64,000 nucleotides of DNA, from the NCBI GenBank assembly GCA_032622095.1, contig CP136064.1, positions 126,901,605-126,965,604 on the forward strand, given 5' to 3'. This document shows positions 15,770 to 60,057 of this stretch, in pieces. This DNA is from Siphonodentalium dalli. Taxonomy: Eukaryota > Mollusca > Scaphopoda > Gadilida > Siphonodentaliidae. The notes under the pieces were generated by a model. It was not told where the DNA came from. It made no database searches and saw only the letters and a program-made list of their open reading frames with translations. How positions within the stretch are numbered: the stretch's first letter is position 1; every line of letters begins with the position of its first letter. The translations under genes and the position numbers were made by a program.

Positions 15770-15784
15770 TCACTGAATATTTAT

Positions 15785-15935
15785 TTGCGATTAAGCGCAA
15801 ATGATTTGTGTTTAAGTGCAAATGATTAACGCTTAAGCATAAATATTGACGCTTAAGCATAAATATTTGTGCTTAAGCAAAAATGATAGAAGTTATGTGC
15901 AATTAAGCGCAAATATTTGCGCTTAAGCGTAAATA
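15785..15935. repeat. cluster of TTAAGC repeats
   Basis: At least eight degenerate units built from GCTTAAGC or GATTAAGC plus (C/A)AAATAT or AAATGAT, in both orientations (GCGATTAAGCGCAAATGAT; TTTGCGCTTAAGCGTAAAT). Short palindromic minisatellite directly following the G28 tract. Confidence 0.6.
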
Positions 15936-15993
15936 AATAATAAATATGAAAAGGGCCTCCCATAACTATCACCGCCTTTCGTTCAGTTGGGTA

Positions 15994-16446
15994 TACCCAG
16001 CTTTTATAACAAATTTCAGTTGGGTACCCAACTTTTATAAAATTTACATTTGGGTATCGGTACCCAAATTTACCCAAAAGTAACCTGCAGGACCTATGTC
16101 CTGTGCCTACAATTCTTCTTTCCGCTATTGTCAAGCTACAGGAGCCTGGAATTTGGTCAAAACCCCTCTTTTATTGGCGGAACCAGCACCCGGGACTGCA
16201 GGTTCCGCCAATAAAAGAGAGTTTTTGACCAAATTCCAGGCTCCTGTGATCAAGCGTATCGTGGTGAATAAATATATCATACATAAACAATGCAAGTATT
16301 CACAAATTTAACAGGTTCATTTAAAAAAACTGATGGCAATCACTAATTAAATTACATTCTGTGTGAGATTTCATAAAGCTGGGTACCCAAATGTAAATTT
16401 TTTAAAAGCTGGGTACACAACTGAATATTTAAAAAAAAGCTGGGTA
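15994..16446. mobile_element. TIR element with imperfect 60-bp ends
   Basis: Left end TACCCAGCTTTTATAAC and TTTACATTTGGGTA; right end inverse: AAAGCTGGGTACCCAAATG and AAAGCTGGGTA at 16446. Each arm contains two or three GGGTACCC blocks. The spacer contains another, much more perfect hairpin (16138-16247). Non-coding. Similar GGGTACCC text also occurs at 63508-63545. Confidence 0.5.
16138..16247. repeat. near-perfect hairpin, 47-bp arms
   Basis: Left arm 16138-16184 from ACAGGAGCCTGGAATTTGG to TTATTGGCGGAACC, right arm 16201-16247 the complement with only a few changes; loop of 16 nt. Likely a nested MITE; no RNA function can be inferred from sequence alone. Confidence 0.65.
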
Positions 16447-16525
16447 GTGGGCAGGGGTGGCGCCAGGATTTCCCCGACGGAGGGGCTATGGTCCCCGACA
16501 GGGGGGGCTAGACCGGTGACCGAAG

Positions 16526-17185
16526 GGAGAGCGCGAGTAATAGAGACTGGTAGTGATAGTGACTGAAATTGAAATTCGCAATGTGAGCGCTTCAAAACAA
16601 CATTTATGAATGAACTGTGACGTCACATGGAATCGCGTGCAAACATTCCAACGTATATTCATGCGCACTATAACAAAATATTTCCTAGTTTGTATCATTA
16701 TTTGATTGCCTGTCATAGTAGATAATATGGTAAAACATATCAGAAAGTACCTAATATATATATATATATATGTTGAGTATTTAGTTATATAAAAAACACA
16801 GGTGTGGGAGATTTTGTCCATTGAATTTAAATTTCGTAAGACATAATTATGCGCGTGCCATTGCAGGTTAGGAGAATTTAGCAAATCGAGTTAATCGTGT
16901 GACACAAATAAACTTGCAGGTTGAGACAATTTACTCAAGAAAACTAATCGTCGGACACAAATCCAACGATTTTGGCTTTAAAAACACTCTTAAAATGAAA
17001 TTGGTATGGTGGATTCTGTCACACGAATGGTAGATAACGTGTTATAACGTGTTACATGCACAGTGTGTTTGTACCAAGAATCTCCGTCGCAGGTTCGGTA
17101 TAGTGATGTTCGGGAATCTTCGGGGGATCTTAGCACCGAGTGATGTTCGGGAATCATCGGGGGATCTTAGCGGCGGAAGAATTCT
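16526..17185. mobile_element. GATCCCCCGA-family element, copy 3 (one end missing)
   Basis: Runs from GTAATAGAGACTGG through TGACGTCA (16618-16625), the CGTCGGACACAAATCC block, and the double GATCTTAGC end at 17120-17175. The opposite terminal region is absent: it starts internally where the preceding sequence is unrelated. Confidence 0.6.
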
Positions 17186-17517
17186 ATTTATGTTTCGGAA
17201 ATACAAGAATAACAAAAATTGCCGCTGTTGTTTTGAAATCAGTGTTTTAACATTTCCTCGACATCAAAGGAGATTGCACAGTACAATACATTAAAAATAA
17301 CTGTAATCCTCAATCCGATCAACCAACACATAGAAAACGGAGACGAATTGCAGTAATAGAGACTGATAGTGATAGTGACTGAAATTGAAATTGGCAATGT
17401 CGAGAATCTCCGTCGCAGGTTCGGTAGTGATGTTCGGGAATCTTCGGGGGATCTTAGCACCGAGTGATGTTCGGGAATCGTCGGGGGATCTTAGCGAGGG
17501 AAGAACATTAAAATTGG
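17186..17517. mobile_element. GATCCCCCGA-family element, copy 4, internally deleted
   Basis: Starts in TATGTTTCGGAAATACAAG and runs to GAAATTGGCAATGT, then jumps at about 17399 straight to CGAGAATCTCCGTCGCAGG. The middle, with TGACGTCA, is lost. Ends at GAAGAACATTAAAATTGGG. Confidence 0.6.
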
Positions 17518-21085: not shown

Positions 21086-21518
21086 ATGGAGGACTTAAAC
21101 GCGTACAGCTATAACTAATAATTTCTTTGTTTTTGTTACACAATTGCTTACAAATGCAGCATATGTCAGAACAATGTAGGTTCTAATTCTATTTACTGTG
21201 ATTTATGTGAATGTTGGGTTCACAGAAAATGTGCAAATCTAACCAAACTAGATCTGTACAATCTATCTAAACAAACCTCGACATGGTTTTGCAAAAATTG
21301 TATTAGCAATAACTTACCATTTTCCAACCTGAATGATGAAGAATTTATGCAGTACTTGCTTGGAATAGAAGATGATCTTGTGGAATTATATACAAATTGC
21401 ACCAATCTAAATTTTGAGCCATTTACATTGTCCAATAACAAAGGTTATTACTCAGGCGATGAAATCGACCCTGATAACAACTTTTATAAAGAAGTACACA
21501 ACAAATGTCCATATTATA
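21086..21518 (+). pseudogene. LINE remnant: PHD-finger region, cut by a transposon
   Basis: A frame starting near ATG 21086 (two TAA stops at 21116-21121) becomes open at about 21122 and runs to 21518. It encodes a PHD-type zinc finger with order C-x2-C (KCSICQ), C-x2-C (YCDLCE), H-x2-C (WVHRKC) and C-x2-C (FCKNC), then an acidic linker. PHD fingers ahead of an endonuclease are known in some animal non-LTR retrotransposons. The frame resumes after the insertion as an endonuclease start, which supports a LINE over a host PHD gene. Stops and truncation make it inactive. Confidence 0.65.
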
Positions 21519-22438
21519 GGGGGAACTGGGGTGGAGTGGGACATTTTTTCTTCCAAGGCCCAGAACTCAATTTGTGCTACATATCCAACTGTTGTTTTGT
21601 GTACGATTTATACATAATTGATTACCGCAACTAATATGACTGTGTATACCATTGCCAACTTGATATATTTCCCATGCTGGCAACTTAAAACAAGGTACCC
21701 AAATGTCCCACACTTCCCCGGGTCATGGGGTACAATGGGTCACCCATTGGAATTCAATAACATACCCCATAACAACAAACGAAACAGTTATTCATTCAAA
21801 GAGGGAAATTAGTTATGTGGTAACACACATTTATATAGTTGAAACATAATGTTTTATTGATACTTCCACTCAATCGGAGAGGAGTGGGACACAGTGTCGA
21901 TCCATAGGGCCCAATTCTAATCTGACAAAATAATTAAAAAACATTCTGTTGGGTGTCTACATGCAGAAGATAAAAGCAACCAGGAATGGTATTTTCCAAA
22001 GATCTGCTCAACTATACATTGCTGTAACTAACCGTCCCAATGTACACCAAGCCAAATGTCCCACTCTACCCCGACATGGTCATGTGTCGGTTGAGTCAAT
22101 ATTCTAGCAACATGCCTATGCTAAGGTATTGAAACAGATATGCAATTTGAAGCCCAAACAGTTGTTTCAGAGCTCAGAGTCGGTAAGAAAATATCTCTCA
22201 TATGTACTTTAAATATTTCAAAATGTTGTGTTCCAAAAAAATTGCCCAGATTCCATAAAAACCCTTTTTTTCACATAAAACTTTAATATGCTTGCCACAC
22301 ATATTATTCATGTCATATGTGCTTCGGACATCTTATGAGCATCAAGTGAATCCATACAGATGAGGCAACTCATGGATGGTATTGAGTTATCTCTACTGTC
22401 CCACAGTACCCACTGTCCCACTCCACCCCAGTTTCCCC
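21519..22438. mobile_element. TA-target TIR transposon inside the LINE
   Basis: Ends begin GGGGGAACTGGGGTGGAGTG and finish with the complement of GGGGAAACTGGGGTGGAGTG. TA is present on both sides (21517-21518 and 22439-22440). If the 920 bp and one TA are left out, the LINE frame passes from the PHD region into the endonuclease region without shift or stop, which supports the boundaries and the 2-bp duplication. Related to 10316-12069. No transposase frame. TA duplication recalls Tc1/mariner-type insertion, but the GGGG ends are unusual for that group. Confidence 0.75.
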
Positions 22439-23242: not shown

Positions 23243-24728
23243 ATTCAATGTACGTCTTATAAGGCATTCGCGGTATGGATAAATTCCTCGGACCCAACGG
23301 AACGCTCTTTATTGTTGTGACTTACACACGCATCGTAGATTATGATTGTATCACAGATTGGACCAGCCGTTAACGTATGGTAATAGCAATCGATGGTGAA
23401 TGCTTCAGACGTACATTGAATAATGCAATATCATTTTAAGAAATAACACGATTTGATTCCCGATTAGACTGTAACAATACTACAATGATTTAATAAAGAA
23501 TTAAAGTTTCTTCTGGTTCCACAACAGTTGCTGGATCAGTTTCTGGTCGAAAATACGCTCTTTAATATGCGCCACCGCATTAATAATTATATATAACAAT
23601 AATAATGACAAGTTTTGGAAGCACCCGGCGACAATTCGTCATGAAAAATATTACTCTTGGTATCCAAATAATCATTTGATTATTAATTTTCTCAGCCAAA
23701 AATTCACCCTATAGATGGTCCTTATTTGGATCTGTATGATAATTAAATAATGGCCATTAGATTATTTTTTTATGTCCACATTTTAAATACCAATCATTGG
23801 GTCAAAAATATGGTCAAATAATCTTGGAGTTGCAGCAGTTATGGAATTCGAAGAGCAGGGTACGCTTACGCACTCTGTAATTTTGTGGGGTACACTACTG
23901 TGCACGTGCAGTCCCAGGGTACACATCGTCATTCGACTGGTAGACAATGACCGTTTCCACATAAACACGCATGTGTTTACAGATATTTAATGCCTGATAT
24001 GAAATGATTGCAAATGATTTAAACATTAATACGATAATCAGTTAAATTAATAATATGTCTCTCGAGGCTGCCGCGACTGGTAACGTTTGCAAGTATGTGT
24101 GTGTGTGACTTGTGGCAGGGAATAAATATTCCTTCTTATTAAAACAAGTGGATTTATTTATGATACGCAAAAGGTGACTTTGTAAGAAGCGGTCGTATTA
24201 TGTTTACAATCCCAATTTATGAATGTGCGCACTAGAATGCGCCATATATATAAAATCTGTACCTGTCCATTACACTTCGGTCATTGGCAATATTATCAAA
24301 ATATACCATCTTCTTAATATTAATTAGTAAACGAAAGGGGTCATATTTTTTTCAATAATTGCCATTGACTGTGGTTCAGGAGTATTATCTTTCATTCAGA
24401 GTTAAGCTCAGTAAATCCAGACCCTCTCTAATTGTCTTTAAATTTCTGTACACAAACCGATGGGTTTGTATTGAGGTAAAACCCGGTATGTATTAGTGAA
24501 AAAGCACACAACGATACGGGGTTTAACCAACAACGTGTATTGTAATTTTTCCATAATCTTAATGAGTTAGAGTTAGCACCCTTGTACCAAAAGTAGTACC
24601 GATGTTCTGCTTAATAAGTACGTTGCCAGATAAGTCAGTATATAAAAATAGAACAGCTTAAGCATAGGCCCCCGGTGCGCACATGTGTTATGGACGAGCT
24701 CTGATTGGCTCTGCACATAAAGGTGAAG
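23240..24728. other. no gene recognised
   Basis: Unique-looking AT-rich sequence. Two copies of ACGCTCTTTA (23302, 23555), a motif also present at the window start. No exon with good splice sites was seen. Confidence 0.4.
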
Positions 24729-24790
24729 ACAGACATGACAATTGGAACTTATTCCCTATTCCTTATTCCTTATTTTCAAAAATGTCGCTT

Positions 24791-27700
24791 TCAAACCGAT
24801 TTGACGGCATGGGTGGGTGGCCCGCCCCAAATACCACCTAGAAACACCCCGACCCCCTACCCATCACCCCCGGGGGGTGCCACCCCCGAGGGGGTGAAAA
24901 TGGGGTATGGACCATTTTCGAGAACGGTAAGGATTTCGACCGATTTGACGGCATGGGTGGGTGGCCCGTCCCAAAATACCACCTAGAAACACCCCGACCC
25001 CCCACCCATCACCCCCGGGGGGTGTCACCCCGAGGGGGTGAAAATGGGGTATGGACCATTTTCGAGAACGGTAAGGATTTCGACCGATTTGACGGCATGG
25101 GTGGGTGGCCTGCCCCAAATACCACCTAGAAAACACCCCGCCCCACCCATCACCCCCGGGGGGTGCCACCCGAGGGGGTGAAAATGGGGTTTGGACCATT
25201 TTCGAGCACGGTAAGGATTTCGACCGATTTGACGGCATGGGTGGGTGGCCCGCCCCAAATACCACCTAGAAACACCCGACCCCCCACCCATCACCCCGGG
25301 GGTGCCACCCCCGAGGGGGTGAAAATGGGGTATGGACCATTTTCGAGAACGGTAAGGATTTCGACCGATTTGACGGCATGGGTGGGTGGCCCGCCCCAAA
25401 TACCACCTAGAAACACCCCGACCCCCACCATCAACCCCGGGGGGTGTCACCCCGAGGGGGTGAAAATGGGGTATGGACCATTTTCGAGAACGGTAAGGAT
25501 TTCGACCGATTTGACGGCATGGGTGGGTGGCCCGCCCCAAATGCCACCTAGAAACACCCCGACCCCCACCCATCACCCCCGGGGGGTGCCACCCCGAGGG
25601 GGTGAAAATGGGGTTTGGACCATTTTCGAGAACGGTAAGGATTTCGACCGATTTGACGGCATGGGTGGGTGGCCCGCCCCAAATACCACATAGAAACACC
25701 CGACCCCCACCCATCAACCCCGGGGGGTGTCACCCCGAGGGGGTGAAAATGGGGTATGGACAATTTTCGAGAACGGTAAGGATTTCGACCGATTTGACGG
25801 CATGGGTGGGTGGCCCGCCCCAAATACCACCTAGAAACACCCCGACCCCCACCCATCACCCCCGGGGGGTGCCACCCCGAGGGGGTGAAAATGGGGTTTG
25901 GACCATTTTCGAGAACGGTAAGGATTTCGACCGATTTGACGGCATGGGTGGGTGGCCCGCCCCAAATACCACATAGAAACACCCGACCCCCACCCATCAA
26001 CCCCGGGGGGTGTCACCCCGAGGGGTGAAATGGGGTATGGACCATTTTCGAGAACGGTAAGGATTTCGGCCGATTTGACGGCATGGGTGGGTGGCCCGCC
26101 CCAAATACCACCTAGAGACACCCCGACCCCCCCACCCATCACCCCAGGGGGTACCACCCCGAGAGGGTGAAAATGGGGTTTGGACCATTTTCGAGAACGG
26201 TAAGGATTTCGACCGATTTGACGGCATGGGTGGGTGGCCCGCCCCAAATACCACCTAGAAACACCCGACCCCCCCACCCATCAACCCCGGGGGGTGTCAC
26301 CCCGAGGGGGTGAAAATGGGTATGGACCATTTTCTAGAACGGTAAGGATTTCGACCGATTTGACGGCATGGGTGGGTGGCCCGCCCCAAATACCACCTAG
26401 AAACACCCCGACCCCCCACCCATCACCCCCGGGGGGTGCCACCCCGAGGGGGTGAAAATGGGGTATGGACCATTTTCGAGAACGGTAAGGATTTCGACCG
26501 ATTTGACGGCATGGGTGGGTGGACCGCCCCAAATACCACCTAGAAACACCCCGACCCCCACCATCACCCCCGGGGGTGCCACCCCGAGGGGGTGAAAATG
26601 GGGTATGAACCATTTTCGAGAACGGTAAGTATTTCGACCGATTTGACGGCATGGTGGGTGGCCCGCCCCAAATACCATCTAGAAACACCCCGACCCCCCA
26701 CCCATCACCCCCGGGGGGTGAAAATGGGGTTTGGACCATTTTCGAGAACGGTAAGTATTTCGACCGATTTGACGGCATGGGTGGGTGGCCCGCCCCAAAT
26801 ACCACCTAGAAACAACCCGACCCCCCACCCATCACCCCCGGTGGGTGCCACCCCGAGGGGGTGAAAATGGGGTATGGACCATTTTCGAGAACGGTAAGGA
26901 TTTCGACCGATTTGACGGCATGGGTGGGTGGCCCGCCCCAAATACCACCTAGAAACACCCGACCCCCCACCCATCAACCCCGGGGGGTGTCACCCCGAGG
27001 GGGTGAAAATGGGGTATGGACCATTTTTCTAGAACGGTAAGGATTTCGACCGATTTGACGGCATGGGTGGGTGGCCCGCCCCAAATACCACCTAGAAACA
27101 CCCCGACACCCCACCCATCACCCCCGGGGGGTGTCACCCCGAGGGGGTGAAAATGGGGTATGGACCATTTTCGAGAACGGTAAGGATTTCGGCCGATTTG
27201 ACGGCATGGGTGGGTGGCCCGCCCCAAATACCACCTAGAGACACCCCGACCCCCCACCCATCACCCGAGGGGGTGAAAATGGGGTTTGGACCATTTTCGA
27301 GAACGGTAAGGATTTCGACCGATTTGACGGCATGGGTGGGTGGCCCGCCCCAAATACCACATAGAAACACCCGACCCCCCACCCATCAACCCCGGGGGGT
27401 GTCACCCCGAGGGGTGAAAATGGGGTATGGACAATTTTCGAGAACGGTAAGGATTTCGACCGATTTGACGGCATGGGTGGGTGGCCCGCCCCAAATACCA
27501 CCTAGAAACACCCCGACCCCCACCCATCACCCCCGGGGGGTGCCACCCCGAGGGGGTGAAAATGGGGTTTGGACCATTTTCGAGAACGGTAAGGATTTCG
27601 ACCGATTTGACGGCATGGGTGGGTGGCCCGCCCCAAATACCACATAGAAACACCCGACCCCCCACCCATCAACCCCGGGGGGTGTCACCCCGAGGGGGTG

Positions 27701-29480
27701 AAAATGGGGTATGGACCATTTTCGAGAACGGTAAGGATTTCGGCCGATTTGACGGCATGGGTGGGTGGCCCGCCCCAAATACCACCTAGAGACACCCCGA
27801 CCCCCCCACCCATCACCCCAGGGGGTACCACCCCGAGAGGGTGAAAATGGGGTTTGGACCATTTTCGAGAACGGTAAGGATTTCGACCGATTTGACGGCA
27901 TGGGTGGGTGGCCCGCCCCAAATACCACCTAGAAACACCCGACCCCCCACCCATCAACCCCGGGGGGTGTCACCCCGAGGGGGTGAAAATGGGGTATGGA
28001 CCATTTTCTAGAACGGTAAGGATTTCGACCGATTTGACGGCATGGGTGGGTGGCCCGCCCCAAATACCACCTAGAAACACCCCGACCCCCCACCCATCAC
28101 CCCCGGGGGGTGCCACCCCGAGGGGGTGAAAATGGGGTATGGACCATTTTCGAGAACGGTAAGGATTTCGACCGATTTGACGGCATGGGTGGGTGGACCG
28201 CCCCAAATACCACCTAGAAACACCCCGACCCCCACCATCACCCCCGGGGGTGCCACCCCGAGGGGGTGAAAATGGGGTATGAACCATTTTCGAGAACGGT
28301 AAGTATTTCGACCGATTTGACGGCATGGTGGGTGGCCCGCCCCAAATACCATCTAGAAACACCCCGACCCCCCACCCATCACCCCCGGGGGGTGAAAATG
28401 GGGTTTGGACCATTTTCGAGAACGGTAAGTATTTCGACCGATTTGACGGCATGGGTGGGTGGCCCGCCCCAAATACCACCTAGAAACAACCCGACCCCCC
28501 ACCCATCACCCCCGGTGGGTGCCACCCCGAGGGGGTGAAAATGGGGTATGGACCATTTTCGAGAACGGTAAGGATTTCGACCGATTTGACGGCATGGGTG
28601 GGTGGCCCGCCCCAAATACCACCTAGAAACACCCGACCCCCCACCCATCAACCCCGGGGGGTGTCACCCCGAGGGGGTGAAAATGGGGTATGGACCATTT
28701 TCTAGAACGGTAAGGATTTCGACCGATTTGACGGCATGGGTGGGTGGCCCGCCCCAAATACCACCTAGAAACACCCCGACCCCCCACCCATCACCCCCGG
28801 GGGGTGCCACCCCGAGGGGGTGAAAATGGGGTATGGACCATTTTCGAGAACGGTAAGGATTTCGACCGATTTGACGGCATGGGTGGGTGGACCGCCCCAA
28901 ATACCACCTAGAAACACCCCGACCCCCACCATCACCCCCGGGGGTGCCACCCCGAGGGGGTGAAAATGGGGTATGAACCATTTTCGAGAACGGTAAGTAT
29001 TTCGACCGATTTGACGGCATGGTGGGTGGCCCGCCCCAAATACCATCTAGAAACACCCCGACCCCCCACCCATCACCCCCGGGGGGTGAAAATGGGGTTT
29101 GGACCATTTTCGAGAACGGTAAGTATTTCGACCGATTTGACGGCATGGGTGGGTGGCCCGCCCCAAATACCACCTAGAAACAACCCGACCCCCCACCCAT
29201 CACCCCCGGTGGGTGCCACCCCGAGGGGGTGAAAATGGGGTATGGACCATTTTCGAGAACTGTAAGGATTTCGACCGATTTGACGGCATGGGTGGGTGGC
29301 CCGCCCCAAATACCACATAGAAACACCCCGACCCCCCACCCATCACCCCCGGGGTGTGCCACCCCGAGGTGGTGAAAATGGGGTATGGACCATTTTCGAG
29401 AACGGTAAGAATTTCGACCGATTTGACGGCATGGATGGGTGGCCCGCCCCAAATACCACCTAGAAACACTCCAACCCCCG
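24791..29480. repeat. ~141-bp GC-rich satellite, 34 copies, higher-order structure
   Basis: Counting the anchor GACGGCAT gives 34 copies from 24803 to 29424, spaced mostly 139-144 bp, with some shorter 126-131-bp units. Each unit has GGGTGGGTGGCCCGCCCC, CACCTAGAAACACCCCGA, a palindromic CACCCCCGGGGGGTG, GAGGGGGTGAAAATGGGG and ATTTTCGAGAACGGTAAGGA. Variant units recur in the same order at a distance of about 1674 bp (26361 onward against 28035 onward), and a five-unit block repeats again 694 bp later. The long stop-free frames on both strands are by-products of the repeat, not proteins. Confidence 0.9.
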
Positions 29481-29576
29481 TTTAATTTGTCTGAAAAAAC
29501 TGCCAGATCACATGATAACCCACTTCATGACACAGTAGTTGCAAGTTTTAGTTGAATCGCTAAATATCATATATAG

Positions 29577-30480
29577 CACACTCGTATGGACGATGGCCGG
29601 TCTATGTCCTATTATGCTTTGCCAGACTCCGTATATGACTGAATTCTTTCTGATACACGTCACACTCGTATGGACGATCGCCGGTGTTCGTCCTCTTATG
29701 CATTGTCAGACTCCATATATGACTGAATTCTTTATGACACACGTCACGCTCGTGTGGTCGATCGCCGGTGTTCGTCTTCTTATACATTGCCAGACTCTCG
29801 TATGACTGAATTCATTATGATACACGTCACGCTCGTATGGTCGATCGCCGGTGTTCGTCCTCTTATGCATTGCCAGACTCCACATATAACTGAATTCCTT
29901 ATGATACACGTCACGCTCGTATGGTCGATCGCCGGTGTTCGTCCTCTTATGCATTGTCAGACTCCATATATAACTGAATTCCTTCTGATACACGTCACAC
30001 TCGTATGGACGATCGCCGGTTTTCGTCCTTTTATGCATTGCCAGACTCCATATATGACTGAATTCCTTATGATACACGTTACGCTCGTATGGTCGATCGC
30101 CAGTGTTCGTCCTCTTATGCATTGTCAGACTACATATATGACTAAATTCCTTGTCATACACGTCACTCTCGTGTGGACGATCGGCAGTGTTCGTCCTCTT
30201 ATGCATTGTCAGACTCCATATATGACTGAATTCCTTATGATACACGTCACGCTCGTATGGTCGATCGCCGGTGTTCGTCCTCATATGCTTTGCAAGACTC
30301 CATACATAACTGAATTCCTTCTGATACACATCACACTCGTATTGACGATCACCGGTGTTCGTTCTCTTATGCATTGTCTGACTCCATATATGACTGAATT
30401 CCTTATGATACACGTCACGCTCGTATGGTCGATCTCCGGTTTTCGTCCTCTTATGCATTGCCAGACTTCATATATGCTTA
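29577..30480 (-). pseudogene. decayed C2H2 zinc-finger repeat array, left arm
   Basis: About eleven tandem 84-bp units (28 codons). The minus strand reads a long open frame (30458 to 29706) with unit TGDRPYECDVYQKEFSHIW then SLTMHKRTN. This is the C2H2 framework with linker TGEKPY, but the second Cys is Tyr, the last His is Asn, and the first Cys is often Arg, so no unit keeps a full metal site. A 1-nt deletion near 29790 shifts the last two units out of frame. It reads outward, toward the satellite. It behaves as a minisatellite; a translated product cannot be excluded. Confidence 0.7.
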
Positions 30481-30841
30481 TAAGTCTTAATAATTCTCCT
30501 TAGTAAATGCAGCCCAAACATACTCCAAAACTTGTTATTGAGAAAATTGACCGTTGCATATTCATTCATATCCATTTATATCCACACAACTGAAACATAT
30601 TTGTTTATTCACTGGAATCCATATCAATATTTAAATCCAATTTATATATTAATCTAATCTGAAAATTATAGTGAAATATTTAAATTCTTTATGTAGCCAT
30701 TATTGGTTGTATTTTGTCATCCAGGGGTGCCGGGTAGAATGCCATCATAGGCCACGACACTCCACACAATACACATATAAATTGACTTATATTATAACGT
30801 ATTAATGTATAATGTATTGTGAAATAAAATATTATCCTAAA
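30481..30841. other. spacer within the giant inverted repeat
   Basis: AT-rich, no repeat unit or gene recognised; separates two blocks of the 84-bp repeat. Confidence 0.4.
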
Positions 30842-31108
30842 ACTATATGCCTGAATTCTTTCTCATACACGTCACTCTCGTATGGTCGATCACCAGTGTT
30901 CGTTCTCTTATGCATTGTCAGACTCCATATATGACTGAATTCCTTATAATACACGTCACGCTCGTATGGTCGATCGCCGGTGTTCGTCCTCTTATGCTTT
31001 GCCAGACTCCATATATAACTTAATTCCTTCTGATACAGGTCACACTGGTATGGACGATCGCCGGTGTTCGTCCTTTAATGCATTACCAGACTCCATCTAT
31101 AACTGAAA
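30842..31108 (-). pseudogene. decayed zinc-finger repeats, detached block
   Basis: Three to four more units of the same 84-bp repeat, same orientation as 29577-30480 (TATGACTGAATTCCTTATAA, TCGATCGCCGGTGTTCGTCC), with small length changes that break the frame. Confidence 0.65.
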
Positions 31109-31194
31109 TCATCTAAAGTTTTAAGACAAGCGACCAGTTTATTGATATCCGACATTTTCACACTAAGTTGCACACACCTGTTTTTTCCTTGTTA

Positions 31195-32108
31195 TCTATT
31201 ATATATTTTGGAAGATCTGTTTGTTTGTTTGTTTGTTTGTGTGTTTGTAATCGATGGACTCGAAAATGGCCCAGCCGATTTCGATGAAACTTGGTATGTG
31301 GGGGTATTTTCGGGTCAGGACCAACATAGGCCTATTAATTTGTCCGTGCGAGGTCAACTTTTCACGTGCCGAGGTCAAATCTGTTTTTACGCCGTTTTGC
31401 GCTAATATATTTCAGTTCGGTGCTTACAAATCGATTCGAAACAGCGCGAATAATAACATGCTAGTCATAATAATGACACTATGAGAATCTTTCGTGTTTC
31501 CTCTTTCCAACGATATATAATATGTATGTATCCGTTTTAGTTATCTGCCTCAATTATTAAGAAGAAGTGGTACGATCTTCTATCAGGGTAAAAACAATGC
31601 GTAACTTCTATGACGTCGTTAGAGGTCATAAGGTTAGATCACGTTAACTCTTCTCCGGCCGATGCATTTGACTGTTTCAGACGTCTTGGCGATATCTCGG
31701 GCACCGATGGTAATTTATCTTTACGTTGAAACTTGATAATTAATGAGCGTGTGTATATGAGGCGCGTTTATATACTTCAGTGGAAATCAAATCGGGTTAA
31801 ACTGGCGGATTTTTACGGACGAAATTTGATGCATAGGGTATCTCGGTATCCGATGGGCCGATTTCCCGGTATCCGCTGGGCCGATTTCCACCATTTTTGG
31901 GGTGTTGGTCCACCTGACCTTGACCTTCAAAATGGTCAATTCAAGGTCAAATCGGGTAAAACCGGATGGATTTCGACGGGTACTTTTGTCGGGTACTTTT
32001 GTTCGGGCACTGTGTTTTGGACGGGTCAAATCGTGACCCCACTTGACCTTGGCCTTCAATATAGACAATTCAAGGTCAAAGCCCGGACGAAGTCGGGTCA
32101 CCTTCTAG
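31195..32108 (+). mobile_element. complete Helitron-like element
   Basis: 5' TCTATTATATATTTTGG at 31195 after A (31194); 3' hairpin CCCGGACGAAGTCGGG, TCACCTT, CTAG at 32105-32108 before T (32109). This is the expected Helitron end structure and A/T target. 914 bp, no helicase or Rep frame. Homologous to 18770-19630; it has an extra partial duplication (GGTATCCGATGGGCCGATTT) near 31845-31880. It sits near the centre of the giant inverted repeat. Confidence 0.75.
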
Positions 32109-32185
32109 TTATATATATGCTCGCATGCTGCAATGCATATAGACTTCCTCCTCTTTCTGTGAAATGCGCACAGGGTATTTATTAT

Positions 32186-32806
32186 ACACCGGCGATCGTC
32201 CATACGAGTGTGACGTGTATCAGAAGGCATTCAGTTATGTATGGAGTCTTGCAAAGCATAAAAGGACGTACACTGGCGATCGACCATACGAGCGTGACGT
32301 GTATCATAAGGAATTCAGTCATATATGGTGTCTGACAATGCATAAAAGGACGAACACTGGCGATCGTCCATATGAGAGTGACGTGTATGACAAGGAATTC
32401 AGTCATATATGGAGTCTGACAATGCATAAGAGGACGAAAACCGGCGATCGTCCATACGAGTGTGACGTGTATCAGAAGGAATTCAGTTATATATGGAGTC
32501 TGACAATGCATAAGAGGACGAACACCGGCGATCGACCATACGAGCGTGACGTGTATCATAAGGAATTCAGTTATATGTGGAGTCTGGCAATGCATAAGAG
32601 GACGAACACCGGCGATCGACCATACGAGCGTGACGTGTGTCATAAAGAATTCAGTCATATATGGAGTCTGACAATGCATAAGAGGACGAACACCGGCGAT
32701 CGTCCATACGAGTGTGACGTGTATCAGAAAGAATTCAGTCATATACGGAGTCTGGCAAAGCATAATAGGACATAGACCGACCATCGTCCATACGAGTGTG
32801 CTATAT
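32186..32806 (+). pseudogene. decayed C2H2 zinc-finger repeat array, right arm
   Basis: About seven 84-bp units in the opposite orientation to the left arm, with an open frame from 32164 to 32775. Units read TGDRPYERDVYHKEFSHIW or TGDRPYECDVYQKEFSYIW, then SLTMHKRTN. The same ligands are replaced as in the left arm (Tyr for the second Cys, Asn for the last His). Identity with the left arm is high, so both arms were copied or converted after the decay of the zinc site. Confidence 0.7.
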
Positions 32807-32884
32807 ATGATATTTAGCGATTCAACTAAAACTTGCAACTACTATGTCATGAAGTGGGTTATCATGTGATCTGGCAGTTTTTTT

Positions 32885-33060
32885 CAGATTAATTAAACGG
32901 GGGGTCGGGGTGTTTCTAGGTGGTATTTGGGGCGGGCCACCCACCCATGTCGTCAAATCGGTCGAAATCCTTGGGTGATGGGTGGGGGGTCGGGGTGTTT
33001 CTAGGTGGTATTTGGGGCGGGCCACCCACCCATGCCGTCAAATCGGTCGAAAGCGACATT
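32885..33060. repeat. satellite remnant in the right arm
   Basis: Inverse of the 24791-29480 satellite: one shortened unit with a deletion (TCGAAATCC joined to TTGGGTGATGGGTGG) and one partial unit ending GGTCGAAAGCGACATT, mirroring the left start at about 24785. Only about two copies against 34 on the left. Confidence 0.8.
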
Positions 33061-33329
33061 TTTGAAAATAAGGAATAGGGAATAAGTTCCAATTGTCATG
33101 TCTGTAGGTAAAGGTCATACTTCGTGTCGGGATAATACATTTTGCCAAAATTGTTATTTTGCTGTCACTCAAGATTCTGTGTTCTTTGAGAATCAGGTGT
33201 CTTGCGGATACCAAAGGTCCAAACTCTAATTGACGCGGGCAAATTTCACTGACTTTCATTTCAACCTGAATAGAAGATAGATCTAAGAAGATTTACAAGA
33301 CTTTCGTCCTCTTATAACTAGTTGAAGCT

Positions 33330-43226: not shown

Positions 43227-44278
43227 CCCCAAGCACACCTACCCTGGGTTTAGCATTTCTTATACGTTTTGCGAAGGTTGTGTTTTTGTGGTGTAAATCT
43301 ATAGACTTGACCGTTATTTCATAAAAGTAATAATTTACGAAAATAATGGGCATCTTAGAGTTCTCTCTCATTTGAAAACATAAACATTGGGCGCTGTCGC
43401 ATCTAATCCCATACTATGCCCCATAAAAATATTTTGTATATCGTACATTACTTTGCTATGATGTAATTAAGCGAGCTGTTAACTAGGTTACGGGTCGGTT
43501 CTTACTGTGGAGATACCACCATAATACCACTGTTATCATCTTGCATCGCAGGTCACCGTGCTATTGGTGCTCGTTACCGCCATACACTGAGTTATTTTTT
43601 TCGTGACCACGTTCAATTTACTACAAACTGCCCTCCACCGTGTAGTGAAAACATGCGTGAAACAAACTACATGTAGGTGGCCTGCAGGAAATTGAATCCA
43701 ATTTGTGATCTCGGGAAGTTAAAAAAATACATTATTGTAACTACAGAACACAATCCTACTCAAGATATTAAAATTTTCGTATTGCGATAATCGGCAACCG
43801 AAAAAGTTATATTGATCTTCTGTGCTAAGTTTTGTCGTGTTTTTTATTATAATTTATATTCAGCTGATATACAATTAAATTGTTATCTGGATAAACCTGT
43901 CAAGGAGTGTATGCAGTCTGTAAGTTATAACTAGACCAAGGTTTCCTTAGTTAATTCTCAGTCGAGAGATACAGCGGTACTTAAATAACTTTTTGAGATG
44001 GACAGAATTCCCAGCTTGTGACAGCTAGCCTAGCTCATTAATATTCAAGCCTAATGGAGTTGTTAGTGAGGTAATAACGCTTAAGAGTAATTAGCTATTA
44101 AATATGAATTTGGCCTCCCATAGAAAACACTGTCTGATCTACACACAATTGTAAATATTTACATCTCGATTCGGGACGCAACAATCTTCGATAAGCTAAT
44201 GCAGATGATTTTGCCATTAATATACGCATTGCATTTAATAAATATATAAGACTGTCGGTGTGTTGTAAATTTGGATTA
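43227..44278. other. no feature recognised
   Basis: Probable intron sequence without recognised exon or repeat. Confidence 0.35.
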
Positions 44279-45230
44279 ATATTCATAAAAATAACTAGTT
44301 TGAGCAAGATTATTCTCCATTTCTTTTTATCACCCAACAAAATGTTTCATATCACTTTAATACTGGCGCCATCAGTTTGTTCCAGACAGACATCCCATAT
44401 AAACTAAACTTTCGGTTAATTACACACATAATATTATAAAAGACTATTATGTACTTGTTCGTCGTGTAAAACTAACTTTATAGATCATGCCACAAATCTA
44501 TACTCTGGCTAACGCCTATAAAATTCATATATTCCATGCACCTGTCCATAATCTTGGAACTTTTTGAAGTTTTGACGGGAACCTTAATGTAAAGTCGAAA
44601 ATATAACTTGAGGAGAAATTGCATAAATTATTGTAAGCAAAGCAAAATCGCTCACAAAATCACTTACATCATCAAATTTCGGGTTGGGTCCTTCAGTCAA
44701 GTAATAATGAAGAACTATTTTTCCTGTGTTATTTTTAGTCGAGTTTTTGAAGTTTTTCAAAAACTCGACTTAGTGCCACCGCACACGCTGCGATTAAAAT
44801 CGTAAGTGGGGAAAATCGCAGGAGGAAGCATCCAATGCGCATGCCCACGACAATATCGTAGCCAAATCGTAGCAATCAAGCACTGTTTGATTTTACCAGG
44901 AAAATCGTGGCGTGACTTTGGCAACGCGCGCGATCGTAGCTGTCACATGACCACTGTCGCACTGGTCATGTTGTAAATACCACGAAAATCGTAGCTGCAA
45001 AGATCGCAGCACCGTAGCGTCTGCGGGCAAGCTACGATTTCTCCACCTACGATTTTCCCCACTTACGATTTTAATCGTAGCGTCTGCGGTGGCACTTATG
45101 GTTTGACGAGGGACGGTTGGCTGGCGGGCGGCGGCAGGCGGACCTAAAGAATGCCTTATAACTTTGACATTTGTGAACGGATTAAAAAAAAATTTGGTAT
45201 GGCAGTTGCTCCCAATGACTATTTACTGCC
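44279..45230 (+). repeat. direct repeat, copy A (with MITE)
   Basis: From ATTCATAAAAATAACTAG to GCTCCCAATGAC, almost identical by eye to 47624-48231, apart from the 323-bp MITE. Both copies hold a 14-bp-arm hairpin GTCGAGTTTTTGAA...TTCAAAAACTCGAC, and the GC-rich text GGACGGTTGGCTGGCGGGCG. The similarity means a recent duplication, with the MITE inserted only in this copy. Confidence 0.85.
44773..45095. mobile_element. PIF/Harbinger-type MITE, TTA target, empty site known
   Basis: 323 bp. Terminal inverted repeats of about 50 bp starting GTGCCACCGCA(C/G)ACGCT. Flanked by TTA on both sides (44770-44772, 45096-45098). The paralogous copy B shows the uninterrupted site ACTCGACTTATGGTTTGACG with one TTA at 48109-48111. 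A 3-bp TTA duplication is the known signature of PIF/Harbinger insertion. Inside are many AAATCGTAG motifs. Ends related to fragments at 9212, 9819 and 12777. Confidence 0.85.
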
Positions 45231-46010: not shown

Positions 46011-46339
46011 CCACCGTCCGACTTTTTCCCCGAAGTTGTGCACCTTATTGGCAGAAGTTTGGTTGGACGGGTGTGACTAATTACCACCCGGGACCGCCCG
46101 GGTGGCCACACAAGCCTGTGGACACAATATATCGACGTTATAATGTAGCCACATGCCACCTGGGGGCAACATAGGAAAATTTACTCGCTCGCTCGTCTCC
46201 GGCCAGTCATATTAACCCCACAAATGCCGATATTGGCTAAAAGAGTGATTACTGGTGTCTTCGTGTGTTTTCAGACAGATTATTTTGGTGATTATCGGTA
46301 GTGCAATACACATAAGTGTTAATTCCATATATTAACTCG

Positions 46340-47330
46340 TTGAGGCGTCCACGGCCGATGTTATTAACCCCTCAAATTCCAGTAAAACTGGTAAAATGGT
46401 CTATAAACAAAAAAAACCTTGGGACTGCCCGGGACACTATATCTCGAACAATAGCGACATACCCCACGAGGTCAACCTAGAAAATGTTACTCACTCGCTC
46501 GACTTCGGCCGGTGTTATTAACCCCTCAAAATCCGATAAAATGGTATATAATCAAAAAGAACATTGGGACCGCCGGGCGGCCCCCTGGGCACGTGGACAC
46601 TATATCTCGACGTTATAACGTAGCGACATACCCCACAAGGTCAACCTAGAAAATGTTACTCGCTCGACTCCGGCCGGTGTTATTAACCCCTCAAGATCCG
46701 ATAAAATGGTATATAAACAAAATGAACACTGGGACCGCCCGGGCGGCCCCACGGGCCCGAGGACACTATATCTCGACGTTATAACATAGCGACATACCCC
46801 ACGAGGTTAACCTAGAAAATGTTACTCGCTCGCTCGACTTCGGACGGTGTTATTAACCCCTCAAAATCCTATAAAATGGTATATAAACAAAAAGAACATT
46901 GGGACCGCCCGTGGACACTATATCTCGACGTTATAACGTAGCGACATACCCCACGTGGTCAACATAGAAAATGGTACTCGCTCGCTAGACTCCGGCCGGT
47001 GTTATTAACCCCTCAAAATCCGATAAAATGGTATATAATCAAAAAGAACATTGGGACCGCCCGGGTGGCCCCTGGGCCCGTGGACACTACATCTCGACGT
47101 TATAACGTAGCGACATATCCCACGTGGTCAACATAGAAAATGGTACTCGCTCGCTCGACTCCGGCCTGTGTTATTAACCCCTCAAAATCCGATAAAATGG
47201 TATATAAACAAAAAGAACATTGGGACCGCCCGGGCGGCCCCCTGGGCCCGTGGACACTATATCTCGACGTTATAACGTAGTGACATTCTCCACGAGGTCA
47301 ACCTAGAAAATGTTACTCGCTCACTCGACT
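46340..47330 (+). repeat. ~170-bp tandem repeat, left arm
   Basis: About six units with GTTATTAACCCCTCAAAATC, AAATGGTATATAA, GGGACCGCCCGGG, GGACACTATATCTCGACG and TCAACCTAGAAAATG. Spacing is 148-175 bp. One unit is shorter by loss of the GGGCGGCCCC segment. A second terminal-type unit follows at 47330-47480. Confidence 0.8.
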
Positions 47331-47623
47331 CCGGCCGGTATTATTAACCCCATAAAAATCCGATATTGGCTAAGAGGGCACGGAGAGCTCGGTGTCTTCT
47401 TTTGATTTCGGACAGCATATTTTGATGATGCATGGTAGTGCAATACCACCTGATAGTGACTTCCAGATATTGACTCGCTGACGCGTCAACACAAAATCCC
47501 GCAAAATACCGTATCACCATAAATATTCGGCCCTACATGATCGTAAATACCGCAATTTTCTTGAATGTTTTCAATAAAAATTAATAACGTTACACCTACA
47601 TGTATAATTTTTATATTTTATTC

Positions 47624-48231
47624 ATAAAAATAACTAGTTTGAGCAAGATTATTCTCCATTTCTTTTGATCACCCAACAAAATGTTTCATATCACTTTAAT
47701 ACTGGCGCCATCAGTTTGTTCCAGACAGACATCCCATATAAACTAAACTTTCGGTTAATTACACACATAATATTATAAAAGACTATTATGTACTTGTTCG
47801 TCGTGTAAAACTAACTTTATAGATCATGCCACAAATCTATACTCTGGCTAACGCCTATAAAATTCATATATTCCATGCACCTGTCCATAATCTTGGAACT
47901 TTTTGAAGTTTTGACGGGAACCTTAATGTAAAGTCGAAAATATAACTTGAGGAGAAATTGCATAAATTATTGTAAGCAAAGCAAAATCGCTCACAAAATC
48001 ACTTACATCATCAAATTTCGGGTTGGGTCCTTCAGTCAAGTAATAATGAAGAACTATTTTTCCTGTGTTATTTTTAGTCGAGTTTTTGAAGTTTTTCAAA
48101 AACTCGACTTATGGTTTGACGAGGGACGGTTGGCTGGCGGGCGGCGGCAGGCGGACCTAAAGAATGCCTTATAACTTTGATATTTGTGAACGGATTAAAA
48201 AAAAATTTGGTATGGCAGTTGCTCCCAATGA
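47624..48231 (+). repeat. direct repeat, copy B (empty site)
   Basis: Counterpart of 44279-45230 without the MITE. It lies inside the foldback element while copy A lies outside. One noticed difference is TTTTTATCACCC in A against TTTTGATCACCC here. Ends at GCTCCCAATGAC, where the two copies diverge. Confidence 0.85.
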
Positions 48232-48807
48232 CACGAGCGGGTGTAATTGTGTTGAAATCGACAGCAACTGCTTGTCTGAAGAGAGCCGCGGCAGATGTTT
48301 GAATGTGTTGATATCAATTAGCAGTAAAACGGTATCGCAATTGTTATATTGTATACATTAACCCGTTCACAATAATCAGAAGACATATTGGCGGATTTAA
48401 AACGAAACTGTGTTTTCATAACACTTGGGGAAGACGAACAGGTAATCTCGTGACAACAGTGGAGATTTGCGATGAGGTTTCCGTGTTTTTATTGCAATCG
48501 AAAATGGTCGTAATCCCAAAATCTTCTTGGTGCTAGACAATAACGATCAATATGACGAAGAGAGTATTTGTGATACTGGAAACCCGTGTACTTAATTTGC
48601 TTACCGACCAATCACACGATATTTCGTTATGGGGTAGATTATATATAATCGTGTGTGAATTAAAAATAAAATTTAATTCTAAATATCTTAAAATCATGCG
48701 ACCACGTATTCGGTTCACGCTTCCATCCATGGTGCTGTATCCGTGTTCCGTCTGCTCTACTGACGCTGAAGACGAGTCAATATATTTCATATGGAAAATA
48801 CGGCGTC

Positions 48808-49353
48808 GATATTTCAGACCGCCGGAAATTCCAAGGGATACAAGAGCGCGCCTTGGTGGATAAACTGAAATCTGAAAATTTGATGCGATTCTATAATGTA
48901 AATCATGCCGAAAAGAAAACGATCAGTGGAAATAAAATACGAACGTATAGATTATTCAAGTCAAAGTATGAAATTGAACCATACATTGTCAATGCGCGAT
49001 CTGCCAAAGCGAGAATTCTATTCACAAGATTGAGAATCAGTAATCATCGACTGGAAATCGAAAAAGGGAGACACAAACAGCCCCCAAAACCAGTGAGAGA
49101 AAGATTGTGTTCTGCGTGTAATTCAAAACAAATTGAGTCAGAATATCATTTCATCTTAGAATGTCGGGCCTATGAAAGTATTCGCGAAGCTTATGTAAAG
49201 GACATAATTGCAACGTGCCCTCATTTCTTAGAAATGACAAATTATGAGAAGTTAAGATTTATTATGCAGAATGAACAAATTGCAACCGTTAACGTTATAT
49301 GCGACATGATCCGGTCTTTCTTCACCATTCGAGACAATATACATAATGTCTAA
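48808..49353 (+). pseudogene. LINE reverse-transcriptase C-terminal region
   Basis: An open frame runs from about 48808 (DISDRRKFQGIQ) to the stop TAA at 49351-49353. It contains FRxxxHRL-type text (TRLRISNHRLEIEKGRH), PVRERLCSACNSKQIESE then YHFILECRAY. The C-x2-C...H-x4-C arrangement with 'E-x-HF-x2-EC' is the C-terminal zinc-knuckle motif of many non-LTR retrotransposon ORF2 proteins. The reverse transcriptase itself is absent, so this is a 5'-truncated copy. The frame is intact over about 180 codons, so the insertion is fairly young. Confidence 0.65.
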
Positions 49354-49533
49354 TAAAAGCAAGTATACCCTGAGTATACCTAAGATTTTATGACAGTAAA
49401 TTCACGAGCGTATATGCATATCGTATGTGATTACTCATGTTAAATTATTCCATATGTTGATATATGTATTTATTATATGTGCAACTGCCCATTGGGTGTA
49501 TTTTGCATTAAAATCTTATCTTATCTTATGGGG
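49354..49533 (+). mobile_element. LINE 3' UTR and (TTATC)n tail
   Basis: Follows the stop codon and ends in ATTAAAATC TTATC TTATC TTAT at about 49512-49533. A short-unit 3' tail without poly(A) is usual in several LINE clades. This fixes the orientation and the 3' boundary of the truncated LINE. Confidence 0.55.
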
Positions 49534-49718
49534 GGGATGACCATATTACATATTATATATTTTCTTTATTAGCTCCACATATGGAGAGTATGATGACCTC
49601 CATCACCGGGAATAATGTTTTCAGTCCTTGCCCAAAAGGTCGTGGGTTGGGTTGCAATATGGGGAGGTACTTTGACCAGGAAAATCCTATTATACATGTC
49701 CAGTTGACATCAGAGGTC

Positions 49719-49951
49719 TTAAAAGGGCACTAATTATTAATAAAATAAAATCATTAATTATATAACCAAAATTGTTGAAATCTGATCGGTGAAAATTGAA
49801 ACATGTGGGTGAAATTGGCCCATGGCGTGTCAAGAGAAAAGGGCACTAAGTATTGGTAAAATCAAATAATTAATTTTATAACCAAAATTGTTGCAATCTG
49901 ATCGGTGAGAATTGAAACATGTGGGTAAAATTAGCCCACAGCGTGTCAAGA
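49719..49951. repeat. ~115-bp tandem duplication
   Basis: Two units, each from AAAGGGCACTAA to GCGTGTCAAGAG, sharing ATAACCAAAATTGTTG and TCTGATCGGTGA. About 90% alike. Confidence 0.8.
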
Positions 49952-50159
49952 GTTATAGATGCTGTTGACTTCAGACGACTTAAATGGGCAAATACGAGCA
50001 ATTGTTGGCTGATTTTACAATAAACGCTCTTTATTTGTCATAATATGATAATATTCCAGGCATGTATAAATTGGTGCGTTAGATTAGACTAGTCGATCCT
50101 TAAATAGTGACTTTTCAATTTCTATAAGTGGAGATAGAGCTGTGAACAAATATATGTGA

Positions 50160-51010
50160 TCTGATTTGGTTGGGGGGGATAACGTTTCTAGGTTGACCTC
50201 GTGGGGTATGGCCTACGTTATAATGTCGAGATATAGTGTCCATGGGGCCTCCCGGGCGGTGCCGGGCGGTCCCAGTGTTCTTTATGTTTATATACCATTT
50301 TATCGGATTTTGAGGGGTTAATGACACCGGCCAGAGTCGAGCGAGCGAGTACCATTTTCTAGGTTGACTTCGTGGGGTGTGGCGCTACGATATAACGTCG
50401 AGATATAGTGTCCACGGGCCCATGGGGCCTCCCGGGCGGTCCCAGTGTTCATTATGTTTATATACCATTTTATCGGATTTTGAGGGGTTAATAACACTGA
50501 CCGGAGTCGAGCAAGCGAGTAACATTTTCTAGGTTGACCTCGTGGGGTATGTCGCTATGTTATAACGTCGAGATATAGTGTCCACGGGCCCATGGGGCCA
50601 CCCGGGCGTTCCCGGGCGGTCCCAGCACCACTTGTCCTTTTTGTTTATATACCATTTTATCAGATTTTGAGGGGTTAATAGCACCGGCCGGAGTCGAGCG
50701 AGCGAGTACCATTTTCTAATTTGACCTCGTGGGGTATATCGCTACGTTATAACGTCGCGATATAGTGTCCACGTGCCCATGGGGCGGTCCCGGTCGGTCT
50801 CAGTGTTCTTTTTGTTTATATACCATTTTATCGGATTTTGAGGGGTTAATAACACCGGCCGGAGTCGAGCGAGCGAGTAACATTTTCTAGGTTGACCTCG
50901 TGGGGTATGTCGCTATGTTATAACGTCGAGTTATAGAGTCCACGGGCCCATGGGGCCGCCCGGTCGGTCCCAATGTTCTTTTTGTTTATACACTATTTTA
51001 CCGGAGATTG
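50160..51010 (-). repeat. ~170-bp tandem repeat, right arm
   Basis: Inverse of the left-arm array: TCTAGGTTGACCTCGTGGGG, CGTCGAGATATAGTGTCCAC, TTTTATCGGATTTTGAGGGG. About five to six units. The terminal unit follows at 51010-51295 and mirrors 46069-46330. Confidence 0.8.
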
Positions 51011-51666
51011 AGGGGTTAATAACATCGGCCGTGGACGCGTCAACGAGTCAATATATGTATTGCACTACCGAGAATCACCAAAATAATCTGTCTGAAAACA
51101 CACGAAGACATCGGTAATCACACGGGCTCTTTTAGCCAATATCGGCATTTGTGGGGTTAATATGACCGGCCGGAGATGAGTAAATTTTTCTATGTTGCCC
51201 TCAGGTGGCATGTCGCTACGTTATAACGTCGAAATATTGTGTCCACGGGTACGTGGGGCCACCCGGGCGGTCCCGGGCGGTAATTAGTCACACCGGGTTG
51301 GACTGCCAAAAGCATCTTATATGCGTACCCCTTGTTTGGACTTTGTAATGCTCCCTGTCAAAACGATGTGCATTGTCAATTTGGTTTATAAATTTGTAAA
51401 AATAACTACCTGTACTTTGATCAAGATTTTATTCCATTTCTATGTGATCACCCCACTGGTGTGTTCTACATAACTTTAATATAATAAACCAGAAATAATT
51501 AAATTTTAACGTGTGTCTAGTATTTTATTTAGTCATCAAAAGTAAACAAAACAACATAAGTATATTTTAACCTAATTCCGAGCATGTTGAATGTAACCAA
51601 ATTAATGTTTAAACCAAGTACAGGATGCAAACATTTATACACTTATATGCCATATACGGAATAATT

Positions 51667-51813
51667 AAGAAATAAATACACGGTGTAGAGGTGTGTATGG
51701 TCAAGTTGTACCACAAAAAACTGATTGTAGGACGACGCGTAGCGGAGTCCTACAATCAGTTTTTTGTGGTACAACTTGACCATACACACCTCTACACCGT
51801 GTATTTATTTCTT
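51667..51813. repeat. perfect hairpin, 67-bp arms, 13-nt loop
   Basis: AAGAAATAAATACACGGTGT to CTGATTGTAGGAC (51667-51733), loop GACGCGTAGCGGA, then the exact complement (51747-51813). No mismatch seen. Directly after it TTTTGTAATACGAC mirrors GTCGTATTACAAAA at 52681-52694, so the hairpin may be one end of an element reaching to about 52700. Confidence 0.8.
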
Positions 51814-58630: not shown

Positions 58631-60057
58631 ATGTATAGTATTCCCTACTAATGCATGTTTTTTCATTGTAAATTGGTTGCAAAAATTGGAAATTGCATCA
58701 CAAATTGTGATGCGAATCTTGTTAAATTGAGCCCTGCCATCTGTCAGCCTGTTCTCTCATCAGACGGTACTCTCCACTTCTGATGTGGCTTCCTTTGCCT
58801 TTGGTGTCATGCCGAGATTTGATTTACTTGATGCAATAAAATTTGAACACTAACTTTTCATCGAGAATATTATTGTACAATTTTCAGGAAAATGTATCGC
58901 ATATAATAAATAAAATGCTACATTATATGCATACAGAAGTACTTGTCCCAGAAATTTGTAAATTTTATTGTAGTCACTTTCAGTGGGTGTCATAAATTTG
59001 TATTCGGTCTGTGCAAAATGTTGTTAAATTGACTGTCCAATTAATTTGCATGATTACATCGTTACAGGGCAATTCTAAACTTACATGTGTATTTTATGGA
59101 GTGATTCATAAACTATGGTAAATATAAGTTAAATTATAAAAATTAATTTTATGATAACCTGTTAAAGAGATGTGAAACACTCCAGTAGGGTGATCCAATA
59201 GAAATGGAGAATATTCTTACTCAAAGTTGTTCTTTTTACGAATATTAATCCAAATTGTCAACACCTACCATCATTCTGATATATTAATTAAATGCACTGA
59301 CTCTGGATGGCAAAATCATTTTTGTTTGTTTGTCGCCGATTGTTGCATCTCGAATCCAGATGTAAATATTTACAATTGAGCTTAGTTTTGATGTTTTCTA
59401 TTGAGTGGTATGGTCGATTTCTTTGAAATTTTCAGCGCTGTTAGTAGAATACTACATTCTCCAGGTTGGCATAACACCTGAATACTAACTTTTCATAAAC
59501 TCGAACAAATCCATAATATGTCTTTAACCTGAACATTTACAGTAAACATCTTCGACACAAATTCATTATTTTTCTATTTCTTGTCGAAAGTAGATCTGTG
59601 TTGTTGATCTGTAATTTATTGAAATTGGCATACAGTCTCCCTTTATAGTCCAGGCACATAAGACATGAAAGTGGAAAAGTAAGGAAATAAATCGGGGGGG
59701 GATCTGAGTTTTTTTATATTTAGCCATAACATCACAGATGTCTCACGTAAAGTTCCCTAAAATCCGATTTGAACTTTCTGAGTTATATAATGTTTTCACA
59801 ACAGTTATATAGATATTTCACAATCATGGAAATAATTGAATGCTGTAACAATATTTCAGCCGAAACAAAATGCACTCAATATTGTTTGATTCACAATTCT
59901 CGAACCGAAGACACCAATTAAAAGGGAAACTTCAAATTAATTTTGCAGAAATGGATATGAAATAAAAGACTGAGCCAAAACAATGACGATTTTGAAGGCA
60001 AACTGTTGTATTCGATATCGGTTTTCTCGGGCTTCTCAAAACATGAACGCAAGCTTA
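58631..60057. other. no gene recognised
   Basis: AT-rich sequence with no convincing exon or repeat. Confidence 0.4.

Follow-up and report, generated by a model that had tools for sequence, protein, structure and literature searches.

Foldback transposons, such as the TU elements of sea urchin, carry long inverted arms with internal tandem repeats. An element of this architecture occupies positions 46069-51295 of a 64,000-nucleotide stretch of contig CP136064.1 (the whole stretch is termed the window in the following) and is very probably a non-autonomous foldback DNA transposon. Besides Drosophila, foldbacks have been published from nematodes, mosquito, midge, sea urchin, rye and Arabidopsis (PMC3169594, PMC5225508, PMC4079207). 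The closest plan is that of Tetris, a foldback of Drosophila virilis with a flanking domain, an outer domain of ~220-bp tandem repeats and an inner domain, whose variable middle has no apparent coding content, whose target-site duplications measure 8-10 bp and for which no transposase is known (PMC4079207). The likeness is one of published plan and not of sequence, and the units of the present element measure ~170 bp. Muta1 of Aedes aegypti, an active Mutator-like element termed a type 2 foldback, shares 8-9-bp target-site duplications, arms composed of a terminal motif and tandem repeats, and non-autonomous relatives with varied middles; its repeats, however, measure 12 bp, its arms 145 bp, and a transposase is encoded (PMC5225508). 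Tm1, a Mutator/foldback element of Meloidogyne, is similar in its composite arms, variable repeat number, 8-10-bp duplications and non-autonomous forms, but its commonest duplication is 9 bp, and short motifs take the place of the ~170-bp units (PMC3169594). Galileo, a Drosophila element of the P superfamily, also has long arms, some with internal tandem repeats, but differs in its 7-bp flanks and its P-type transposase (PMC3573991, PMC3688188). The Helentron-derived Cg_HINE of oyster is likewise a mobile element carrying satellite-like tandem arrays; as a Helitron it makes no target duplication, and its array lies between two modules and not in inverted arms (PMC7492417).

The two ends of the element and the duplicated target are located as follows.

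46061-46068, forward strand: left target-site duplication GGTTGGAC, an exact match to 51296-51303
51296-51303, forward strand: right target-site duplication GGTTGGAC
46069-46085, forward strand: left 17-bp end GGGTGTGACTAATTACC, identical to the right end in 16 of 17 bases
51279-51295, reverse strand: right 17-bp end CGGTGTGACTAATTACC

The exact 8-bp repeats GGTTGGAC adjoin the element on both sides and occur in the 64-kb window only at 46061 and 51296 of the forward strand; the opposite strand contains no copy. The ends begin with GGGTG (left) and CGGTG (right), and the 16-bp part shared by them starts with GG. Matches to GGTGTGACTAATTACC are confined to 46070 (forward strand) and 51279 (reverse strand) of the window, where no third copy of the element end was found at up to 3 mismatches. 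For 2 million random pairs of 8-mers from the window, the frequency of identity was 7.4e-5, and 84 of 99,867 random end pairs shared at least 8 bases when a slip of 0-3 bases was allowed at each end. As a further control, 702 outer-maximal 13-bp inverted pairs were considered. Because inverted pairs within arrays also show chance direct repeats of 7-9 bp, the 445 pairs touching arrays were excluded. Direct repeats of at least 8 bp flank three of the remaining 257 pairs, the element being one of them, and 10 of 702 if all are counted. Decoys at 20 other offsets yielded a mean of 0.6 such pairs; note that two overlapping offsets scored 6 and 5, and that 9 of those 11 pairs stem from a repeat tangle at 13.6 kb. 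Combined, the target duplication and the ends make a genuine insertion by far the likeliest reading. The original prediction had claimed both an exact 8-bp target duplication and inverted ends with a G/C outer base, and both are found as described.

The arms consist of a terminal unit, which corresponds to a flanking domain, followed by an array.

46069-46361, forward strand: left terminal unit (flanking domain), 293 bp, its first part 89.5% identical to the right counterpart, gaps excluded
51022-51295, reverse strand: right terminal unit, 274 bp
46362-47341, forward strand: left array, 6 units of 152-170 bp
50185-51021, reverse strand: right array, 5 units, of which the innermost breaks off near 50185 and the other four measure 170-187 bp
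47342 to ~47490 (inner limit approximate), forward strand: inner domain of the left arm, which repeats the second half of the terminal unit

With lengths of 1.4 kb (left) and 1.1 kb (right), the inverted arms align at 83% identity over 1145 columns, gaps counted. This alignment had been proposed as a check of the claim that both arms are arrays of the same ~170-bp repeat, and the claim withstood it with 6 + 5 units. A distinct terminal unit of ~250 bp had been postulated in front of each array; it is present in both arms, but the measured lengths are 293 and 274 bp. Each terminal unit is composed of the 17-bp end, a diverged monomer behind it, and a second part specific to the terminal unit, and the left and right units are identical in 249 of 299 alignment columns. 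The inner domain, which the original prediction does not mention, is evident from an inverted match of 47222-47446 to 51057-51274 (76.7% identity). Array units of one arm are 90.3% identical (25 pairs) and those of opposite arms 90.1% (30 pairs), a difference with a permutation p of 0.35; units matched by position across the arms reach 90.6% (5 pairs). The units cluster neither by arm nor clearly by position, and since the values within and between arms are nearly equal, there is no sign of a recent independent expansion of either arm. Outside the element, a search of the window at E up to 1e-4 gave no arm-like sequence, and an Rfam scan of the window gave nothing at gathering scores.

Between the arms lies a composite middle with the following features.

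47491-50184: composite middle region; the 18 frames scanned out of 23 gave no recognisable transposase
48670-49350, forward strand: open frame of 227 amino acids, no family match
49721-49952, forward strand: 116-bp tandem duplication

The middle contains 23 stop-to-stop frames of at least 45 amino acids, 18 of which were compared with Pfam. No curated cut-off was reached among these 18 frames, which agrees with the expectation of an interior without transposase. The matches below cut-off were to DUF1972 (0.072), Crp (0.28), Tet_C_40 (0.059), WG_beta_rep (0.083) and BRI3BP (0.12), and the middle may contain the remnant of a decayed transposase. For the frame of 227 amino acids, no family was found in Pfam or NCBIfam and no relative in viral_contigs; one match in PDB was weak (E 0.19). 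By eye, we take it to resemble the cysteine/histidine end of the polymerase of a long interspersed nuclear element (LINE), a likeness that the searches did not confirm.

Long inverted arms with internal tandem repeats, an exact 8-bp target duplication and a middle in which 18 of 23 frames gave no recognised transposase are features of foldbacks, the last one of their non-autonomous form, and the ends, the target duplication and the arm anatomy bear out the original classification of the element as a foldback transposon. Some observations count against it. The outermost bases are unequal (left G, right C). The domains of the Tetris type (flanking, outer, inner) are all present on the left, but the inner domain is absent from the right arm. 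Folding of one array unit was no better than that of shuffles (z 0.04). Finally, the element is a single copy in which no transposase is seen, so that its ends lack confirmation by a second insertion. An FB/Galileo architecture as known in Drosophila had been proposed; the foldback plan stands, but it is closer to that of Tetris, which is also from Drosophila. Membership in the Galileo family is not supported, given an exact 8-bp duplication, in the one copy available here, as opposed to 7-bp flanks (PMC3573991).

Part of the middle is nearly identical to DNA flanking the element on the left, where a miniature inverted-repeat transposable element (MITE) has been inserted.

47620-48232, forward strand: captured copy of left-flank DNA, 613 bp, 2 differences to the flank
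44281-45219, forward strand: parental copy, now interrupted by the MITE
44773-45095: palindromic MITE of 323 bp with TTA duplication; the corresponding empty site is 48107-48111 in the interior copy

The interior and flank copies agree in 611 of 613 bases, and the source lies ~2.4 kb to the left. Leftward of the breakpoint, only the flank copy remains homologous to another family member (44120-44360 versus 59401-59162); it is therefore the fuller copy, and the interior piece is truncated. The empty site of the MITE is intact in the interior copy. Therefore, the capture preceded the insertion of the MITE or came from an allele lacking it. Local capture of the 613-bp piece from the left flank is likely. 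The pair is the only one in direct orientation with at least 98% identity in the window (at least 120 bp, outside satellites). Two observations speak against local capture: inverted pairs of 99-100% identity are likewise present in the tangle at 13.5-20 kb, so that recent local copying is not peculiar to the element, and the captured piece is a member of a larger repeat family, so that its real source may be elsewhere. Instead, the two pieces could be recent copies of an active repeat, or derive from a third copy located elsewhere, as the diverged relatives at 51368-51528 and 59108-59401 might suggest. This origin is rather improbable, as the interior copy is cut short at either side when compared with the one in the flank, no duplication is visible around it by eye, and its 99.7% match is 2.4 kb away, whereas the similarity of other copies in the window is 70-79%.

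Local capture also fits the picture drawn by a survey of capturing transposons (Pack-TIRs) in animal genomes, in which neighbouring DNA is copied into a transposon: the source was on the same chromosome in 59.8% and within 15 kb in 56.9% of cases, most of the latter within 5 kb, and single-copy cases were attributed to gap filling without transposition (PMC8277862). As in that survey, the source at 44281-45219 is nearby and not surrounded by arms of the element, which occur nowhere else in the window. In contrast to Pack-TIRs, what was captured here is a repeat, and it makes up only part of the middle. The survey's length rule, an internal sequence of 80-120% of the source (PMC8277862), does not hold for the middle as a whole (2.7 kb versus a source of 939 bp including the MITE); the captured piece alone matches the source in length once the MITE is left out. 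The two copies of the captured piece have diverged by 0.3%, compared to ~10% for the monomers and terminal units of the two arms; the arms are thus probably much older than the capture, although their divergence may predate the insertion.

A 12-bp palindrome recurs in the arms, and its outermost copies are placed symmetrically.

46135-46146: palindrome ACGTTATAACGT with 1 mismatch, candidate protein-binding site, 67-78 bp from the left end
51218-51229: palindrome ACGTTATAACGT, perfect, candidate protein-binding site, 67-78 bp from the right end

With at most 1 mismatch, ACGTTATAACGT has 12 matches in the window (6 of them perfect), all inside the arms, whereas 100 simulated sequences contained a mean of 0.15 and a maximum of 2. 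It is carried by 12 of the 13 monomer-type units, the exception being the unit termed L3. Left and right distances from the ends are 67/67 and then 542/541 bp. In a 37-bp core around the palindrome, the terminal units match the monomer consensus in 33/37 and 35/37 positions, compared to 68/104 and 64/96 outside it; the corresponding Fisher p values (0.006 and 0.0007) are optimistic, as the core was chosen after the alignment had been viewed. Since the palindrome lies at both ends and in 12 of 13 units and nowhere else in the window, the arms may act as arrays of transposase-binding sites, with ACGTTATAACGT as the best candidate site. Less favourable to this function are the later palindromes, whose positions diverge (708/728, 860/898, 1029/1070), a palindrome at 370 in the right arm that has no left partner, and the array monomers, in which the conservation of the core (95.2%) barely exceeds that of the remaining sequence (94.2%). 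Because of this minute excess, it is the comparison with the terminal units that argues for constraint on the core. In Galileo, a transposase site ~70 bp from the end has been footprinted, and further sites lie in tandem repeats (PMC3688188); its resemblance to the palindrome at 67 bp is one of working and not of descent.

A transposase of the Mutator class stands slightly above an even chance of being the one that moves the element; after the P and Merlin types considered below, the remaining probability goes to other classes. The preference for Mutator stems from the 8-11-bp duplications and the long or repetitive arms typical of this class (PMC6446971, PMC5225508, PMC3169594), and from the placement of Tetris there on similar grounds (PMC4079207). 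The 8-bp duplication falls within the 8-11-bp range (PMC6446971), although the length of the duplication and the type of arm are the whole basis of the assignment, which counts against it. The alternative that the foldback is moved by a Galileo-like transposase of P type with DNA-binding THAP domains is unlikely. In its favour are the position of the palindrome at 67-78 bp from the ends and the 8-bp duplications that the P element makes. We take the ends found here, however, to be unlike those of Galileo or P, and Galileo is flanked by 7 bp (PMC3573991) instead of the 8 bp observed. It is quite unlikely that the foldback derives from a Merlin-type transposon. For Merlin, 8-9-bp duplications and 5'-GG ends are described (PMC8101967); the duplication has a suitable length and the matching 16-bp part starts with GG, but the base beside the duplication is G at the left end and C at the right, so that 5'-GG is present at one end only (left GGG, right CGG), and the arms of more than 1.1 kb exceed the Merlin inverted repeats of 24-462 bp (PMC8101967). 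That two arrays of one satellite in opposite orientation were joined by chance or by the assembly, with no transposon involved, is very improbable, since the exact 8-bp duplication stands right beside the matching ends, the arms differ by 10-17% and are hence not one array doubled by the assembler, and terminal units mark both outer ends, even though the arms are satellite-like and long inverted arrays are hard to assemble. Two further candidates do not fit: hAT, since GGGTG and CGGTG differ from its CAGNG-like start, and Helentron/HINE, which makes no target duplication (PMC7492417), whereas an 8-bp duplication is present here.

For the foldback transposon, the following course of events can be envisaged. 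Acting in trans, a transposase that most likely belongs to the Mutator class would cut at the 17-bp ends, and insertion by an 8-bp staggered cut would create the 8-bp duplication. The transposase would be held by the repeated core sites in the satellite-like arms, where unequal exchange may alter the number of units. The middle would have been rebuilt at this locus, at least partly, through the repair of a later break within the element, with neighbouring DNA as the template. It is a reasonable inference that an autonomous partner exists elsewhere in the genome.

Tandem-repeat MITEs of a clam are reportedly the subject of a published paper. The strings of the end and the core were absent from the literature searched, and searches for foldbacks in molluscs, bivalves or sea urchin returned reviews, Drosophila work and papers on oyster satellites. 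In the available portions of three oyster papers, a foldback with satellite arms is not described (PMC8268682, PMC7492417, PMC11136912). Rehavkus is named in PMC4298943 and has a table row in PMC6446971. In viral_contigs, there was no exact match to the 28-base monomer, end, 20-base core or 26-base flank-repeat patterns, and in genome_contigs none to the 20-base core; these are collections of viruses and prokaryotes, with little bearing on a eukaryotic element.

The window contains further repeats of related kinds. A second foldback at 12201-12659 is flanked by a 9-bp duplication GTAACTGTG; its inverted arms, 84% identical over 190 columns, contain tandem repeats of ~30 bp. A third one is probable at 24725-33108, where the outer ends match in inverted orientation (24729-24869 versus 33105-32973, 93%); its arms comprise a 143-bp satellite, which takes up 4.7 kb on the left but by eye about two units on the right, and inverted 84-bp arrays, and the candidate 7-bp duplication TAAAGGT is weak if taken alone. 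The 84-bp satellite at 29577-31107 and 32186-32800 reads as degenerate C2H2 zinc fingers; in the units viewed by eye, the second cysteine and the second histidine are replaced, and in many of them the first cysteine is replaced as well. The tangle at 13560-17517, in which direct and inverted repeats are nested, has a candidate 10-bp duplication GCAAGGTTTC, and related copies, some 99-100% identical, extend to ~20.4 kb. Just to the right of the element, a 147-bp palindrome (95%) is located at 51667-51813. An open frame at 21122-21634 encodes a PHD finger (Pfam E 1.7e-6). With other foldbacks nearby, the element stands out less, and the locus gains in interest.

The element is an ordered example for two open links, namely satellites riding on transposons and foldbacks acquiring foreign middles. 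The sequence of events, with the capture followed by the MITE, can be read from the two copies in flank and interior and from the empty MITE site, and the symmetric array of palindromes turns the purpose of repetitive foldback arms into a question of binding. If the host is a mollusc, such elements would be a carrier of dispersed satellites additional to Helentrons. It is tempting, though tentative, to suppose that satellite-armed foldbacks are common and varied in this genome, with several unrelated families in this one 64-kb window that might spread satellites, rebuild their middles from adjacent DNA, and use their arms as multi-site binding arrays around a palindromic core.

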